DNA of 64,000 nucleotides from Prochlorococcus sp. AG-363-M21. GTDB lineage: Bacteria; Cyanobacteriota; Cyanobacteriia; PCC-6307; Cyanobiaceae. The DNA lies in NCBI GenBank assembly GCA_003278305.1, contig QCFU01000001.1, positions 62,001-126,000 on the forward strand, read 5' to 3'. The number at the start of each line of letters is the position of its first letter. The stretch's first letter is position 1. The notes beneath the pieces are model-generated. The model saw only the letters and a program-made list of their open reading frames with translations, did no database searches and was not told the origin of the DNA. Made by a program: the position numbers and the translations under genes. Positions 9,598-44,005 of the stretch are shown here, piece after piece.

Positions 9598-10194
9598 TTG
9601 CAATATGGTACCAACAGATTTTTTTACTTGAAAGCTCTGCTGACCATAATTGCTTCAGTAACAGGCCTATTGACTATTCTTATAGGTGGCATGATTCAAT
9701 CTGCTATTTTAATCCCACGATCAGATTTAACGCTAAGAGTAGTTGATTTACCAAGCAGCTTACAAATAGCTGGTCTACTATTTACAGCATTAGTTTGTGG
9801 TTTTAGAAGTGCTCTAATAGCTTGCATTGCTTATTTGACTATAGGGATATTCTTTATGCCAGTTTTTCATGGAGGTGGAAGTACCGGATATTTAATGACA
9901 CCAGACTTTGGTTATTTATTAGGTTTTATTCCAGCCACTTGGATATGTAGTAATTTATCATCTCCCAAAAAGAAGAGTATATACAGCTTGACATTAATCG
10001 CATTCATAGGATTAGTTACTATTCATTTTACTGGTATTATTTATATACTAATTGGTACAATAACGACACTGTTTTCTTTAGACCTAGTTAAAACAGTTTA
10101 TCTATATTCACTTTCTCCTTTACCTTTTCAAATAATATTATGTCCAGCAATCGCTTTGTTGGCAAAGATTTTTAGAGCCTTACTAATAATCTAA
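9598..10194 (+). CDS. bioY: BioY-family biotin transporter S-component
   Basis: Membrane substrate-binding component for biotin uptake. The 198-residue protein has about six hydrophobic segments and the BioY patterns: LPSSLQIAGLLFTALVCGFRSALIA, then the Gly-rich FMPVFHGGGSTGYLMTPDFGYLLGF. BioY works alone or with an ECF AT module; no ECF ATPase lies nearby. Translation starts at TTG 9598; the nearest ATG is out of frame. The stop overlaps the lspA start by one base (TAATG), so lspA is coupled to it. Other genomes put bioY beside biotin genes under BirA control; I see no such operator in the 117-bp gap upstream. Confidence 0.88.
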   Translation: MQYGTNRFFYLKALLTIIASVTGLLTILIGGMIQSAILIPRSDLTLRVVDLPSSLQIAGLLFTALVCGFRSALIACIAYLTIGIFFMPVFHGGGSTGYLMTPDFGYLLGFIPATWICSNLSSPKKKSIYSLTLIAFIGLVTIHFTGIIYILIGTITTLFSLDLVKTVYLYSLSPLPFQIILCPAIALLAKIFRALLII

Positions 10195-10679
10195 TGTATT
10201 TTATAATCTTAAAAAGAAAGAATCTATTCCTTATAACATTAATGTTATTCTCATTTGATTTACTTAGCAAAGTATTAATAAGTAATTTCATGCAAAATGC
10301 CGAAGATCTTAAAATAATACCAAGTCTAATTCACTTTACCTTGGTAAAAAACTATGGGGCAGCATTTAGCCTTTTCGAAAGTTTTCCATTACTTCTAAAA
10401 TTTGTAAGTCTTATTATTTCTATCATTCTAATTCTAATTATATTCCTTAAAAATATCATTAGTCATCAACTAAAGATTGGCTTAGTTTTTCTTTTAGCTG
10501 GCAGTCTAGGAAATGGTCTAGACCGTTGGCTATATGGATATGTTATAGACTTTATAAATATAACGATATTAAACTTTCCAATATTTAACCTTGCTGATAT
10601 ATATATAAATATTGGCATTTTATTCATACTCTATGATAATTTAGTTAAATCTAATCATAGAAATATTATTAAACACTAA
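10194..10679 (+). CDS. lspA: Lipoprotein signal peptidase (signal peptidase II)
   Basis: Inner-membrane aspartyl protease that removes signal peptides from diacylglyceryl-modified prolipoproteins such as the metal-binding lipoprotein encoded at 40908-41855. The 161-residue protein has four membrane helices and the family motifs VKNYGAAFSL, GNGLDR (residues 106-111), YVIDF with catalytic Asp119 and FNLAD with catalytic Asp135. Its ATG overlaps the bioY stop by one base. The GTPase gene downstream begins after 3 nt, so bioY, lspA and the GTPase look like one unit. Confidence 0.96.
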   Translation: MYFIILKRKNLFLITLMLFSFDLLSKVLISNFMQNAEDLKIIPSLIHFTLVKNYGAAFSLFESFPLLLKFVSLIISIILILIIFLKNIISHQLKIGLVFLLAGSLGNGLDRWLYGYVIDFINITILNFPIFNLADIYINIGILFILYDNLVKSNHRNIIKH

Positions 10680-10682
10680 ATC

Positions 10683-12221
10683 ATGAAATCCTCTAGGAGA
10701 TGGCTTTTAATAAGTCTTTTGATCTTTCTACTACTTATACTATCTTCAATAATTTCAGCTCTAATTAATCTAATAAATTTACAGTCTATTTTAATATTGT
10801 TAGTCCTCATTACTTTAATTATAAATTTAAAAGGGTTAAAATGGTTTAGACAGTTAATTCGCAAATATTTATACAAACCTAATAAAAGAAGGTTTGTTAA
10901 CTATATACCAAAGAATAAAAGGTTGGCAGCAAAAAAAAGTCTTCATAGTATAGATAGATTAATAGAACAAATACAAAACAAAGTAGAACTAACTTCTATT
11001 TTAAAAGAAAAAGAAAGAATAGAAAAAGATTTGGCGAGAGGTGATATTATTATTGTAGTTTTTGGAACTGGATCAACCGGGAAAACATCAATTGTAAGAT
11101 CTCTTCTTAAAGAAATTGTCGGTGATGTGGGTCCAGATCATGGAACTACAGACAAAAGTTATACTTACAAGCTTAGCCTCAGAGGACTCGATAGATCTAT
11201 AAAAATAATAGATACACCAGGAATTTACGAGAGTGGGGAACTAGGCAAATCACGAAAGAAAGATTCCTTGTTAAGAGCTAGTAGAGCAGATTTAATAATT
11301 ATTGTGGTAGACAATGATTTACGATCAGTAGAAGCAGAATTAATAAATAGTCTTTCAAAAGCTGGGAAAAAGTTATTAATAGTATTAAACAAATCTGATT
11401 TAAGAGGTCAAAATGAAATTGATAGACTTTTAAGGTTAATAAGAAACAAAACTTACAACTTAGTTTTACCTGATAATATAGTTGCAACCTCAGCATCACC
11501 ACAGTCTATTCCTAGACCTGGCAATAATCCTATTCAGCCCCAACCAGAAATTGGCAGCCTAATTACAAGGATCGCCACAATTTTGCAAGAAGAGGGTGAA
11601 GATCTAATATCAGATAATATTTTATTGCAGTGCCAATCATTAGGATTATCTGGGAAAAGGTTATTGAATAATCAACGCAAGAATAATGCCTTAAGTTGCA
11701 TAGATAAATATGCTTGGATAAGTAGTGGAGTTGTTGCAATTACTCCTTTGCCCGGTATCGACCTTTTAGGAGCAGCGGCTGTCAATGGACAAATGGTTAT
11801 GGAAATTGCCAAGATATATGGATTATCACTCACAAAAAAACGAGCAAAAGAGTTGGCCTTATCTGTAGGCAAAACATTGGGAGGTCTAGGTATTATAAAA
11901 AGTGGTGTCTCTCTTATCAGTAATGCTTTAAGTGTAACTTTACCAACAATACTTCTTTCAAGAGTTATTCAAGGCATATCAGCTGCTTGGTTAACACGAA
12001 TAGCTGGGCAAAGCTTTATAACATATTTCAGCCAAGATCAAGATTGGGGTGATGGTGGCATTCAAGAAGTTGTTCAATATCATTTTGAACTAAATAGTCG
12101 TGAAAACAATCTAAGAAAATTTATGCAAATTGCATTTGAAAAGGTCATTGAGCCAATCAGAGAAAATAATAAAAAAGAATTGCCACCTCACCAAATGCTT
12201 CAGGAGGAGGAGGAAGTATAG
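10683..12221 (+). CDS. Membrane-anchored Era-like GTPase with DUF697 domain
   Basis: A 512-residue protein in three parts: two membrane helices (about residues 8-30 and 35-50); a GTPase domain with G1 GTGSTGKT (128-135), G3 DTPG (177-180) and G4 NKSD (236-239); and a C-terminal DUF697 domain with the hydrophobic run ISSGVVAITPLPGIDLLGAAAVNGQM and further membrane-like segments. The architecture resembles YcjX/YcjF-type and cyanobacterial Era/ThdF-like GTPases of unknown function. It follows lspA by 3 nt. Its 3' end overlaps, on the other strand, a 54-aa frame (12157-12321). A second DUF697 protein lies at 41922-43271. The role may involve membrane or envelope stress, but this is a guess. Confidence 0.85.
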   Translation: MKSSRRWLLISLLIFLLLILSSIISALINLINLQSILILLVLITLIINLKGLKWFRQLIRKYLYKPNKRRFVNYIPKNKRLAAKKSLHSIDRLIEQIQNKVELTSILKEKERIEKDLARGDIIIVVFGTGSTGKTSIVRSLLKEIVGDVGPDHGTTDKSYTYKLSLRGLDRSIKIIDTPGIYESGELGKSRKKDSLLRASRADLIIIVVDNDLRSVEAELINSLSKAGKKLLIVLNKSDLRGQNEIDRLLRLIRNKTYNLVLPDNIVATSASPQSIPRPGNNPIQPQPEIGSLITRIATILQEEGEDLISDNILLQCQSLGLSGKRLLNNQRKNNALSCIDKYAWISSGVVAITPLPGIDLLGAAAVNGQMVMEIAKIYGLSLTKKRAKELALSVGKTLGGLGIIKSGVSLISNALSVTLPTILLSRVIQGISAAWLTRIAGQSFITYFSQDQDWGDGGIQEVVQYHFELNSRENNLRKFMQIAFEKVIEPIRENNKKELPPHQMLQEEEEV

Positions 12222-40123: not shown

Positions 40124-40908
40124 TATTCGTCAGAGGAAGCTGAACCGGAAATAGGATCTGGCTGCATCCCTCCGAATGTTCTTGTCAAGTTTTCAGTAGT
40201 AAACACTTTTGAAGTTTCACCATAGGCAAGAACTGTTTTATTAATAAGGACTACCAAGTCACAAAAGTCTCTAACATGATTCAAATCATGGGTTGATATT
40301 AAAATTGTTCTCCCTTCTTGACGAAATTGCATAAATAAATCTGCCATTAATTTTTCTGTTCTGACATCTACTCCAGAAAAGGGTTCGTCCAGCAGTAAAA
40401 CAGAAGAACGTTGAGCAATAGCTCTTGCAAGAAAAGTTCTTTTTCTTTGTCCACCAGATAAAGATCCTATTGGTCTCTTTCTGTATTCAATCAATTCAAC
40501 TCTTTCAAGGGCATGCCATACAGCAGTTCGATCAGATTCTCTAGGTATACGCAAAAAATTCATGGAACCATATCTACCCATCATCACAACATCCCAGACA
40601 CTAACTGGGAAAGAACAGTCAATGCCTTCATTTTGAGGCACATAAGCCACAGCCTGATCTCTCTGAGCCATGGAGACTGGCACTCCATTTATGCGAATTT
40701 TGCCTCTCGAAGGGGAAACAAAACCCATAAGAGCCTTGAAAAATGTTGATTTACCAGCTCCATTCATTCCAACCAAACCACATATAGATCCACTTTTTAG
40801 TTTCAAACTGGCTTCATAAAGAGCTAAATTGCCATTGTAATCAACACAAACTTGTTCAGCTTCAATTCGATATATTGGTGATTGACCTTGATTACTAAAT
40901 GATTTCAT
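40123..40908 (-). CDS. mntA: Mn/Zn ABC transporter ATP-binding protein
   Basis: ATPase of the metal importer, 261 residues. Walker A is GMNGAGKSTFF, the signature LSGGQRKRTFLARAIA, Walker B VLLLDEPFSGVD and the switch His in STHDL. YVPQNEGIDCSFPVSVWDVVMMGRYG is typical of metal-type ABC ATPases. It overlaps both neighbours by one base (TAATG junctions), so all three components are made in coupled fashion. Confidence 0.92.
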   Translation of the reverse strand: MKSFSNQGQSPIYRIEAEQVCVDYNGNLALYEASLKLKSGSICGLVGMNGAGKSTFFKALMGFVSPSRGKIRINGVPVSMAQRDQAVAYVPQNEGIDCSFPVSVWDVVMMGRYGSMNFLRIPRESDRTAVWHALERVELIEYRKRPIGSLSGGQRKRTFLARAIAQRSSVLLLDEPFSGVDVRTEKLMADLFMQFRQEGRTILISTHDLNHVRDFCDLVVLINKTVLAYGETSKVFTTENLTRTFGGMQPDPISGSASSDE

Positions 40909-41855
40909 TACTTTGATTGCGATGGCATGAGGCCTTCAAGAATCAATCGTACGTTGTGCCGTTGAAGCTCTATAAAAGTTGGAGCTGGTCCTTCAGGATT
41001 TGATAAAGAATCAACATAAAAAGTACCTCCAAAAGATGCACCACTTGCTCTAGCCACTTCTAATTGAGCCTTTGAGCTCACAGTACTTTCACAAAAGATA
41101 GTGGGTATATTGTTCTCTTTAACCAATTTAATTAGTCTAAGCATTCGCCTAGGGGTAACTTGACTTTCTGCATTAACTGGCCATAAATACGCCTCTTCTA
41201 AACCATAATCCTTCGCTAAATAAGAAAATGCTCCCTCACATGTAACCAAAAATCTACGGTTTAGGGGTATTTGAGACAAAGATTTTCTTAATTCCTTGTC
41301 TAATTGTTTGAGCTTTTCTTTATAGTTTTTAGCATTATTTAAATAGTAATCTGATCCATCGGGATCAAGGTTAATAAAAGCTTCTAACAATTTATCTACA
41401 TAAAAGATTGCCTTTTTAGGTGACATCCATGCATGAGGATTTGGTTTACCTTGATAAATATCGCCCTCTATCAATAAAGGATCTATGCCTTCTGATAGAA
41501 CAACCCTAGGAACTTTAGTGTTTGAATTAGTAAATCTTCTTGACCATAATTCTAAACCTAGACCATTTTCAACAATAAGATCAGCTGACGAGGCAAAAAC
41601 AAGATCTTGAGGAGTTGGTTTGTAGCCATGTATTTCTACTCCTTTTTTTGTGATTGACTTGACTGTTAGACGATCTCCAGCAATATTCTCTGAAATATCA
41701 GCAAGTACAGTAAAAGTTGTTAAGACAAGGGGTTTATCTTTATTTAAGTTTGATTTAATGGTTCTTTGTTCTACATTACAAGATATACAAAAAAGTACAG
41801 AAAACGCTGCTAAGATTATTTTAGTTAATTGCTTGATTTTCTTACCAAGTATCAT
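40908..41855 (-). CDS. mntC: Metal-binding lipoprotein of Mn/Zn ABC transporter
   Basis: Periplasmic solute-binding protein of cluster A-I. The 315-residue precursor has a lipoprotein signal with Cys26 (VLFCISCN) as lipidation site, which would need LspA. Metal ligands are as in the family: His in KGVEIHGYKPTP, His in KPNPHAWMSP, Glu in IFCESTVSSKA and Asp in TFYVDSLS; His-His-Glu-Asp suits Mn or Zn. The His-rich loop of many zinc-specific ZnuA proteins is absent, which slightly favours Mn. Three 10-bp repeats sit directly before the ATG. Confidence 0.92.
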   Translation of the reverse strand: MILGKKIKQLTKIILAAFSVLFCISCNVEQRTIKSNLNKDKPLVLTTFTVLADISENIAGDRLTVKSITKKGVEIHGYKPTPQDLVFASSADLIVENGLGLELWSRRFTNSNTKVPRVVLSEGIDPLLIEGDIYQGKPNPHAWMSPKKAIFYVDKLLEAFINLDPDGSDYYLNNAKNYKEKLKQLDKELRKSLSQIPLNRRFLVTCEGAFSYLAKDYGLEEAYLWPVNAESQVTPRRMLRLIKLVKENNIPTIFCESTVSSKAQLEVARASGASFGGTFYVDSLSNPEGPAPTFIELQRHNVRLILEGLMPSQSK

Positions 41856-41921: not shown

Positions 41922-43271
41922 TTAGTTAAAACCTGGGCTTAATTTTTGCTCTTTAAGCCAATTACTTGATTGCTTGATAAAAGAAGTCCAATCTACTTTT
42001 TCTAATCGAATTGCAGAGGCAACCAATTCAGGAGCTTGTTTCTTTAAAAGATTAAGATCAGGCTCAGAAACACCATTGTTTAAAGCCATCCAATCTGCCA
42101 TTGATCTGCCCACAACCCTTGTCATATATGCTGCGTTTAAAGACTGAATAGTGCCAGCGGCCAACCATGTGCCTCCATGCAATTTAGAAAAACTCAATAA
42201 TGCTTGTCCACTCCATTCAACAACTCCTTGAGCAAGTGCCGCCATACACAATTGCTTTGCGACTTCCTTTAAGAGTTCGGGCTTCAATTTGCAAGACCAA
42301 ATATTAGCCATTTCTTTAATCATGAGTCCATTTACTACTGCTACTGACAAGAGGTCAGTTGTTGGAACTGGAGAAGCAAATACAGCTCCAGCAACCAACC
42401 ATTGGGAACGGTTTTGCAAACTCTTAAACTTAATTCTTCTTAAGTCTTCTAACTCTGATTGCCAAGAACGATGTAATCCAGATAATAACCTTTGCTTTGT
42501 AATGTCTTTATTACGTTCTGATTGCTTAAGTATATTTTTAACAGGGTTTAGAATTTCTTTAAGATGCTCAGAAGATCCATTAAAACAAAGAATTCTATCT
42601 TTCCAATTTTCTGGTAATTGTGTATGAAGCATCTTTATTTGGTCTGACAATGTACTGCAATCAGCCCAAGAAATTAAAATCCAGCTTTGTTTTATTTCAG
42701 GGATATTTTTTAACCAGATTAAATCTACTGCCCTTAAAGGAAGGGGAAGCAAATACACAAGCTGATCTTTATTAAATAAAGAACTTGGGAAAGACCAAGA
42801 CTCATCATCCAGAGGCAAAAGATTAGAAGATGAGATATCTAGGGGTTTAATTTCTGAGAATACATCTCTTAAGAATTCATTTGTGGGCATCTCATTACCG
42901 TCAGTACCCGTAAAAGCAATAGACTGATCCTTTTCATTAGAAACAATCTCAAGAAGTTCATTCGATCTTTTTAAACTATTTGCCGAAAAAGAAGAATGGT
43001 CTTCTAATGACTCAAATTGACCCAGCACATCCTTACATCTATCTATCCAACCTTTAACTGTCGTAGGACTATCAAAAGAAGGTTTTGAGGACTTTGAAAA
43101 ATACCAAAGTCCTATAGCAGTTGCAAATATTCCTAAACCAGTAAAAGGCAAATGAACTAGATCTGTTGTGATCCACTGAGTTAATAAAAGAGCAAAAAAA
43201 GTAATCCCAATCCTGTTTAAAGGAATTAATTGTTTGTCTTGACTATCCTTCATGGTCTTATCAACTAACAT
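41922..43271 (-). CDS. DUF697 membrane protein with degenerate GTPase domain
   Basis: A 449-residue protein laid out like the GTPase at 10683: two N-terminal membrane helices (about 20-37 and 42-58), a middle domain and a C-terminal DUF697 domain (QWLVAGAVFASPVPTTDLLSVAVVNGLMIKEMANIW). The middle lacks working G motifs: near the P-loop site it reads FTGTDGNEMPT (residues 120-130), with no GKS/T, and no NKxD is visible. It is probably a non-hydrolysing paralogue. It lies upstream of mntC with 66 bp between. An alternative is a distinct membrane protein with DUF697 only. Confidence 0.8.
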   Translation of the reverse strand: MLVDKTMKDSQDKQLIPLNRIGITFFALLLTQWITTDLVHLPFTGLGIFATAIGLWYFSKSSKPSFDSPTTVKGWIDRCKDVLGQFESLEDHSSFSANSLKRSNELLEIVSNEKDQSIAFTGTDGNEMPTNEFLRDVFSEIKPLDISSSNLLPLDDESWSFPSSLFNKDQLVYLLPLPLRAVDLIWLKNIPEIKQSWILISWADCSTLSDQIKMLHTQLPENWKDRILCFNGSSEHLKEILNPVKNILKQSERNKDITKQRLLSGLHRSWQSELEDLRRIKFKSLQNRSQWLVAGAVFASPVPTTDLLSVAVVNGLMIKEMANIWSCKLKPELLKEVAKQLCMAALAQGVVEWSGQALLSFSKLHGGTWLAAGTIQSLNAAYMTRVVGRSMADWMALNNGVSEPDLNLLKKQAPELVASAIRLEKVDWTSFIKQSSNWLKEQKLSPGFN

Positions 43272-43501: not shown

Positions 43502-44005
43502 ATGGGAGACTCTTACAGAGATTCTAAAAGAGGGCAAAACTTCAATGGCATGAGAGAAAATGCCAGAAGTGATTTCAGAGGGCAGCGAGGGCCTAACAAT
43601 AGGGATAAAGGAGGGTTTCGAATTAGGCTTAGCGATAATGAAATGAACGCAGCCAAAAGAATTCAAGATGCATTTAATTTGCGTTCTACGGTTGCTGTAC
43701 TTGGATTTGCACTTAGGACACTTGGCCAAATGCTAGAGGATGGAAAACTGGATGCTTTAAAAGATGAATTCAGTTCTCAAGGACATGGAAATATAAGAGA
43801 CCATCGAGAGATAGAAAGTACAAAGAGACTTGCCAATACAAAACCAAATCCATTTGCAAGGCCAGCCAAACCTCAATCAAATGAATCAATCGCAACTAAT
43901 GAAGAAGAAATATTGAAATCTGAAAAATTAGAAATAGAAAATGGTTCAGAGGATCAAGATCAAGGTACTAAGACAGCTACAGAAAATAATTCTAATGAAA
44001 ACTAA
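43502..44005 (+). CDS. Unknown protein with a ribbon-helix-helix-like core
   Basis: A 167-residue protein in three parts: a basic, Gly/Arg/Asn-rich N terminus (residues 1-38), a compact core (FRIRLSDNEMNAAKRIQDAFNLRSTVAVLGFALRTLGQML, about 39-78), and an acidic disordered tail rich in Glu, Asn and Ser. The core pattern, a short strand then two helices joined by a turn (LRST), resembles the ribbon-helix-helix fold of Arc/CopG DNA-binding proteins; this is my reading. It lies 3 nt before trpS on the same strand, and its ribosome-binding site sits in an inverted repeat. A DNA-binding or nucleoid role is possible. Confidence 0.6.
   Translation: MGDSYRDSKRGQNFNGMRENARSDFRGQRGPNNRDKGGFRIRLSDNEMNAAKRIQDAFNLRSTVAVLGFALRTLGQMLEDGKLDALKDEFSSQGHGNIRDHREIESTKRLANTKPNPFARPAKPQSNESIATNEEEILKSEKLEIENGSEDQDQGTKTATENNSNEN

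Follow-up and report, generated by a model that had tools for sequence, protein, structure and literature searches.

A DUF697 protein conserved in picocyanobacteria lacks the GTPase motifs and appears to be related to the slr1306 family

Background

The closest described counterpart of the protein analysed here is slr1306 of Synechocystis, which is reportedly involved in the acquisition of inorganic carbon. The family to which slr1306 gives its name (NF049994) resembles our protein in length, in its middle domain, in its DUF697 domain and in a profile match along the full length, and stands nearest to it in trees. Outside the cyanobacteria, a further point of comparison is TIGR01620, which we take to comprise the DUF697 membrane proteins without GTPase motifs that resemble Escherichia coli YcjF, whose gene is presumably a neighbour of ycjX. 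Neither of the two proteins considered below belongs to that group: the intact GTPase scores 29.4 bits with the TIGR01620 model, as opposed to a cut-off of 160, and the motif-less protein is not listed by it at E values up to 1. To our knowledge, few pseudo-GTPases are conserved across a whole bacterial order. No cyanobacterial title appeared among the matches listed for the pseudo-GTPase literature, and our literature searches, largely of titles, gave no description of the pseudo-GTPase reported here. For slr1306 itself, Zhang et al. 2008, as cited in PMC5472144, indicate a putative CO2-concentrating role in their title. In the literature searched, slr1306 occurred in that citing paper alone, among its references, and DUF697 in six papers titled for other topics.

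Here we examine two DUF697 proteins encoded in a window of 64,000 nucleotides (the whole stretch of Prochlorococcus sp. AG-363-M21 DNA that was analysed). The initial annotation had read them as a pair of paralogues, one of which had lost nucleotide binding and might act as a partner or regulator of the other.

Results

The first of these proteins (P0001; 10683-12221, plus strand) is a GTPase of 512 aa with a hydrophobic N-terminal hairpin. As annotated initially, it possesses the G motifs, namely a G1 motif or P-loop GTGSTGKT at residues 128-135 (11064-11087, plus strand), a G3 motif DTPG at residues 177-180 (11211-11222, plus strand) and a G4 motif NKSD at residues 236-239 (11388-11399, plus strand). 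Pfam recognizes both MMR_HSR1 (4.8e-17) and a DUF697 domain (PF05128) at 11625-12098 on the plus strand (4.2e-54, 183.1 bits). The genes for BioY and LspA (9598-10679, plus strand) lie immediately 5' of P0001, and an LspA match was found near P0001-type genes at 6 of 18 loci, most of them with short flanks.

The second protein (P0002), of 449 aa, shares with P0001 the order of hairpin helices, middle domain and DUF697 domain, and occupies 41922-43271 on the minus strand; the plus-strand frame translated over the same interval contains many stops. Its N-terminal hairpin (residues 18-59; 43095-43220, minus strand) consists of two helices, predicted in a region where the structural model has low confidence, and is moderately hydrophobic, with a 19-residue hydropathy of 1.54 from residues 21 and 38 that falls below the threshold of 1.6 used; on the strength of this moderate value, the protein is probably anchored in the membrane. 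A pseudo-G domain (residues 113-250; 42522-42935, minus strand), supported by predicted fold, profile homology and purifying selection, follows the hairpin. At the position of the lost P-loop it reads GTDGNEMPT (residues 122-130; 42882-42908, minus strand), which a multiple alignment sets against GTGSTGKT of P0001, in agreement with the original reading, and other P0002-type proteins have different letters at this place. Further on, the stretch LPLPLRAVDLIWL (42711-42749, minus strand) is conserved in 47 sequences, where P178 and A181 are invariant and L175, L179, D183, L185 and L187 reach at least 90%, and is a candidate binding surface. The DUF697 domain (residues 266-418; 42018-42476, minus strand; PF05128, 7.6e-33, 114 bits) is the sole Pfam match of P0002, no GTPase family being returned at E values up to 1; both proteins exceed the gathering score of this domain (27.7 bits). 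A pairwise BLAST comparison of P0001 and P0002 is significant in the DUF697 part only (32% over 111 aa, 3e-14). The homology of the P0002 middle domain is argued from intermediate sequences and profiles, through the multiple alignment and hhalign; hhalign matches the 47 P0002-type sequences to a P-loop-bearing slr1306-type protein with a probability of 99.3 and an E value of 1.1e-20 over P0002 residues 25-411.

The state of the three motifs was scored at the aligned columns of 145 rows (143 distinct sequences, P0001 and a third DUF697 protein of the same genome having been entered twice), using the patterns GxxxxGK[ST] for G1, DxxG for G3 and [NT][KQ]xD for G4. Left out of these rows were identical sequences, sequences below 380 or above 620 aa, the P0002-type proteins of L164-L243 and part of those of L004-L053. 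None of the 33 P0002-type proteins carries G1, G3 or G4. The P0001-type GTPases of Cyanobacteriia, which have the architecture and DUF697 domain of P0002, retain all three in every one of their 19 rows (18 distinct), and so do the GLV-type GTPases (15/15 for each motif). The T3-type GTPases, which are the third DUF697 protein of our genome and its relatives in the order, preserve G1 and G3 (17/17), with NRxD in place of NKxD in all 17 rows (16 distinct) as against none of the 15 GLV-type. GLV- and T3-type proteins share the DUF697 domain with P0002 but differ from it in keeping G1 and G3 (15/15 and 17/17, respectively), and the two that were checked have no N-terminal peak among their six best hydropathy peaks. 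The slr1306-type proteins are intermediate in this respect: the P-loop is present in all 54 and G4 in 53, and P0002-type proteins have neither (0/33), whereas G3 survives in a single slr1306-type protein (1/54). Three families, named here by the labels that the software assigned, extend this picture. Both f10 proteins, of slr1306 type, keep G1 (2/2) and lack G3 and G4 (0/2 each). The five slr1306-type proteins of f13 (L058, L158-L161) have lost G1 and G3 (0/5 each) and nearly always G4 (1/5), and nest among P-loop-bearing relatives in the tree. The f26 DUF697 GTPases (L270-L275) share DUF697 and the middle domain with P0002 but retain G1, DxxG and NKTD at 6 of 6 loci, and belong to the P0001/GLV side of the tree.

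Proteins of the P0002 type are found throughout the order. A specific relative (E < 1e-69) was detected in 148 of 150 genomes, our own included, so the absence from relatives that the initial annotation had named as a refutation was not observed. The two exceptions (G032 and G115) yield only weak matches, although both are rated 99% complete, and have two DUF697 matches each. Exactly three DUF697 matches occur in 143 of the 150 genomes, two in G032, G084, G115 and G147, and four in G063, G136 and G143. Our genome, which is rated 70% complete, likewise encodes three such proteins, one more than the two initially reported. The third is a GTPase of 439 aa with the P-loop GRVGVGKS (L003:769-2085, contig C3 of the same genome, a different contig from that of P0002), and its specific relative was listed for each of the 101 order genomes searched. 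With three kinds of DUF697 protein, each with relatives of its own, P0001 and P0002 do not form a simple pair. Named relatives of P0002 (80 loci) come from Prochlorococcus, Synechococcus and a few uncultured organisms, and the P-loop pattern is absent from all 80 of their P0002-type open reading frames. It is also absent from 69 of 71 further P0002-type frames (L002, L004-L053 and L074-L093, with our own gene and that of G009 counted twice); in L075 and L076 a P-loop-like string occurs solely in upstream read-through, well away from the aligned site. At some P0002-type loci the open frame runs to about 950 aa, which suggested a fusion, an idea that was discarded on finding that the extra part (L074-L076) resembles low-complexity upstream read-through. 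Outside the order, P0002 matches DUF697 proteins in open frames mostly of 470-600 aa. The cut-off of the slr1306 model (NF049994) is exceeded in 119 of 242 genomes of the class, with one representative reaching 712.8 bits, and in none of the 29 order genomes tested. Taken together with the three DUF697 proteins seen in 143 of 150 genomes, this suggests that P0002 fills the slot of slr1306 in the order.

When the P-loop columns were removed from 90 of the 145 aligned rows, the resulting tree unites the P0002-type proteins in a single clade (SH-aLRT 100) that joins the two slr1306-type f10 proteins (98), and both fall outside the group made up of P0001-, GLV- and T3-type proteins (98), in which the P0001-type (99), GLV-type (98) and T3-type (100) clades are distinct, T3 joins GLV at 100 and the third protein of our genome groups with the GLV-type (100). 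Smaller trees of 43 rows and of 53 rows (the latter with six f26 proteins) place P0002-type proteins with f10 again, at 97.4 and 96. The rows are uneven in composition and the branches long, and AU tests do not reject a forced clade of P0001 and P0002 (p 0.204 and 0.141). By HMM score, 33 of 33 P0002-type proteins fit slr1306-type better than P0001-type profiles (means of 129.1 v 63.6 bits; 109.5 v 64.2 bits with eight sequences per HMM), and in a control all 11 rows of P0001 type from the order (10 distinct) prefer a P0001-type HMM built without them. This profile test can mislead, because slr1306-type HMMs outscore P0001-type HMMs for the full-motif f26 GTPases as well (6/6), even though the tree places them on the P0001/GLV side (98). 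With the curated slr1306 model itself, P0002 obtains 110.8 bits, below the cut-off of 490. Since the AU test leaves a P0001-P0002 clade standing and the profiles favour slr1306-type also for f26, descent of P0002 from the slr1306 lineage is favoured, not proved, by these comparisons.

The initial annotation had allowed for the possibility that structure prediction would reveal an unrelated middle domain in P0002; the predicted domain instead looks G-like. Folding was based on an alignment of 47 sequences, for which 46 of the 80 relatives were used (L214 and L218 were dropped by length, the others as near-identical rows). The resulting full model (pLDDT 78.7, pTM 0.70), of low confidence over residues 1-20 and some of the hairpin, shows a middle domain of alternating strands and helices at residues 116-250. 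Presented with this model, a structural aligner matches the domain to Era over 136 residues (Z 10.9, 3.4 A) and to numerous further G proteins, while Foldseek finds nothing at E <= 0.001. Folded alone, the domain reaches a pTM of 0.78. Foldseek then gives four hits at E <= 0.001, none of them titled GTPase, with other Rossmann-like folds, of flavodoxin, TIR and receiver kinds, at the top, and 47 of 50 entries listed by the structural aligner read as G proteins (Z 9.6-11.7), including four ribosome-assembly complexes in which the matching chain is presumably the G protein; two TIR domains (Z 10.0) and one receiver domain tie with them. The predicted fold is thus consistent with a G domain reduced in size, and it is the hhalign profile alignment that carries the case for homology; YcjF-like and dynamin-like relatives may also exist. 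Between close relatives, pooled omega for the pseudo-G part is 0.165 (22 disjoint pairs) or 0.183 (13 pairs), compared to 0.052 and 0.073 for the DUF697 part. The pseudo-G domain is under purifying selection, looser than that on DUF697. These values, together with frames that are open at nearly all loci, led us to dismiss the notion of a decaying pseudogene.

Downstream of P0002 and on the same strand lie genes for a ZnuA-type binding protein (40908-41855, minus strand; PF01297, 5e-79), which begins after 66 bp, for ABC and ABC-3 proteins, and for a DUF4336 protein. Divergent from P0002 is a gene for a 167-aa protein (43502-44005, plus strand) with no Pfam match at 1e-5, beyond which lies trpS, named from its sequence. 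A survey of 102 loci (100 of P0002 type and two of f10, many with short flanks) recovered the 167-aa gene at 95, trpS at 90 and the ZnuA-type gene at 74. No known carbon gene was seen among the P0002 neighbours examined.

Discussion

Computation yields four properties of P0002: loss of its G motifs, conservation in the order, a predicted fold and purifying selection. The explanation that we favour, with a chance that we put at about even, is that P0002 is a pseudo-GTPase of slr1306 descent which serves as a nucleotide-independent membrane scaffold and has a role in inorganic carbon. According to this scheme, loss would have begun with DxxG, early in the slr1306 lineage; NKxD would have followed before f10, the sister family, branched off, and the P-loop would have disappeared in the common ancestor of the picocyanobacterial order. 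The remaining domain would keep its G-like fold and, independently of nucleotide, serve as a fixed module for binding proteins; the hairpin and the DUF697 helices would hold it at the membrane, with LPLPLRAVDLIWL as a candidate contact. P0002 would not be expected to bind nucleotide in vitro, and would act as a membrane scaffold. Support of inorganic-carbon acquisition by P0002 would be a role borrowed, by analogy, from the one reported for slr1306 in Synechocystis.

Several other readings of the same data deserve consideration. If P0002 were the degenerate paralogue of P0001, acting as its partner, the layout common to both (hairpin, middle domain, DUF697), the near-constant presence of P0002 alongside a stable complement of three DUF697 matches, and the tolerance of the AU test towards a P0001-P0002 clade would all find an explanation. 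The best trees nonetheless join P0002 to f10 and every P0002-type protein fits slr1306-type profiles better, while the two genes lie some 30 kb apart. Of the proposal made at the outset, then, the loss of G1, G3 and G4 in a protein of shared architecture holds, and the degenerate form is conserved in the order; its origin from P0001 finds less favour, with trees and profiles pointing to slr1306-type proteins, though the AU test does not reject a P0001-P0002 clade. Nothing was seen that links P0002 to P0001 as a partner, and the DUF697 GTPase that does occur in tandem in some relatives is another one. We regard this reading as very unlikely.

That other GTPase suggests that P0002 might be an inactive partner or regulator that positions or activates the third, GLV/T3-type protein. 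A GLV-type gene stands directly downstream of the slr1306-type gene, on the same strand, at 16 of 76 loci (3 of 79 having been excluded for offering less than 1 kb downstream), with gaps of -34 to 453 bp; tight tandems, overlapping or separated by 39 bp at most, occur at L057, L059, L110-L112, L137, L139, L143-L145 and L147. The presence of the third protein in all order genomes searched for it and its grouping with the GLV-type speak in the same sense. However, no such tandem is found within the available flank at the other 60 loci, including all five of f13, and in our genome the two genes sit on different contigs. The third protein is retained in G032, which is devoid of P0002, so any dependence is not strict. 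Family f26 also has GLV-type matches, mostly with a best E of about 1e-90, and the top slr1306-like match there is a full-motif GTPase at 6 of 6 loci retrieved. The persistence in G032 and the f26 pattern weaken the idea of an obligate partnership, and we consider a partner role of this kind unlikely.

The proximity of the ZnuA-type gene, 66 bp away on the same strand and preserved at 74 of 102 loci, could alternatively mark P0002 as a membrane accessory of the adjacent zinc-type ABC transporter. Yet Synechococcus loci with 6 kb of downstream flank, L210 and L212 for instance, keep P0002 with no match to a transporter gene, and neither f10 locus has any of the window's P0002 neighbours within the DNA compared. 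This is the least probable of the readings weighed here. Finally, the preserved predicted fold and the purifying selection would also be expected if the middle domain had kept an unconventional mode of binding a nucleotide or some other ligand. Against this stand the absence of G1, G3 and G4 from all 33 P0002-type proteins and the variable letters at the P-loop place, and such binding seems to us quite unlikely.

Returning to the nucleotide-independent scaffold of slr1306 descent, the motif states suggest that erosion in the P0002 lineage was stepwise. The order of the losses would follow from the states seen in living proteins and depends on the tree, its middle step being represented by two f10 genomes. 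Since the presence of the P-loop requires two changes on the 90-row tree, the data suggest that f13 and the picocyanobacterial order lost it independently. More generally, it is a tentative possibility, and one that we rate clearly below even, that a carbon-concentrating membrane protein turned twice from a nucleotide-binding form into a nucleotide-free scaffold, in the picocyanobacterial order and in f13, with living lineages displaying the successive steps of no DxxG, no NKxD and no P-loop.

Conclusions

The role of slr1306 in carbon acquisition is reported but little studied, and P0002 is now linked to its family as a likely counterpart. With living relatives of P0002 in graded states of motif loss, the contribution of each motif becomes accessible to experiment in laboratory cyanobacteria. 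Our analysis thus offers a hypothesis for the function of a protein that is present in nearly every genome of the order and has relatives in both Prochlorococcus and Synechococcus, where it may support the acquisition of inorganic carbon.
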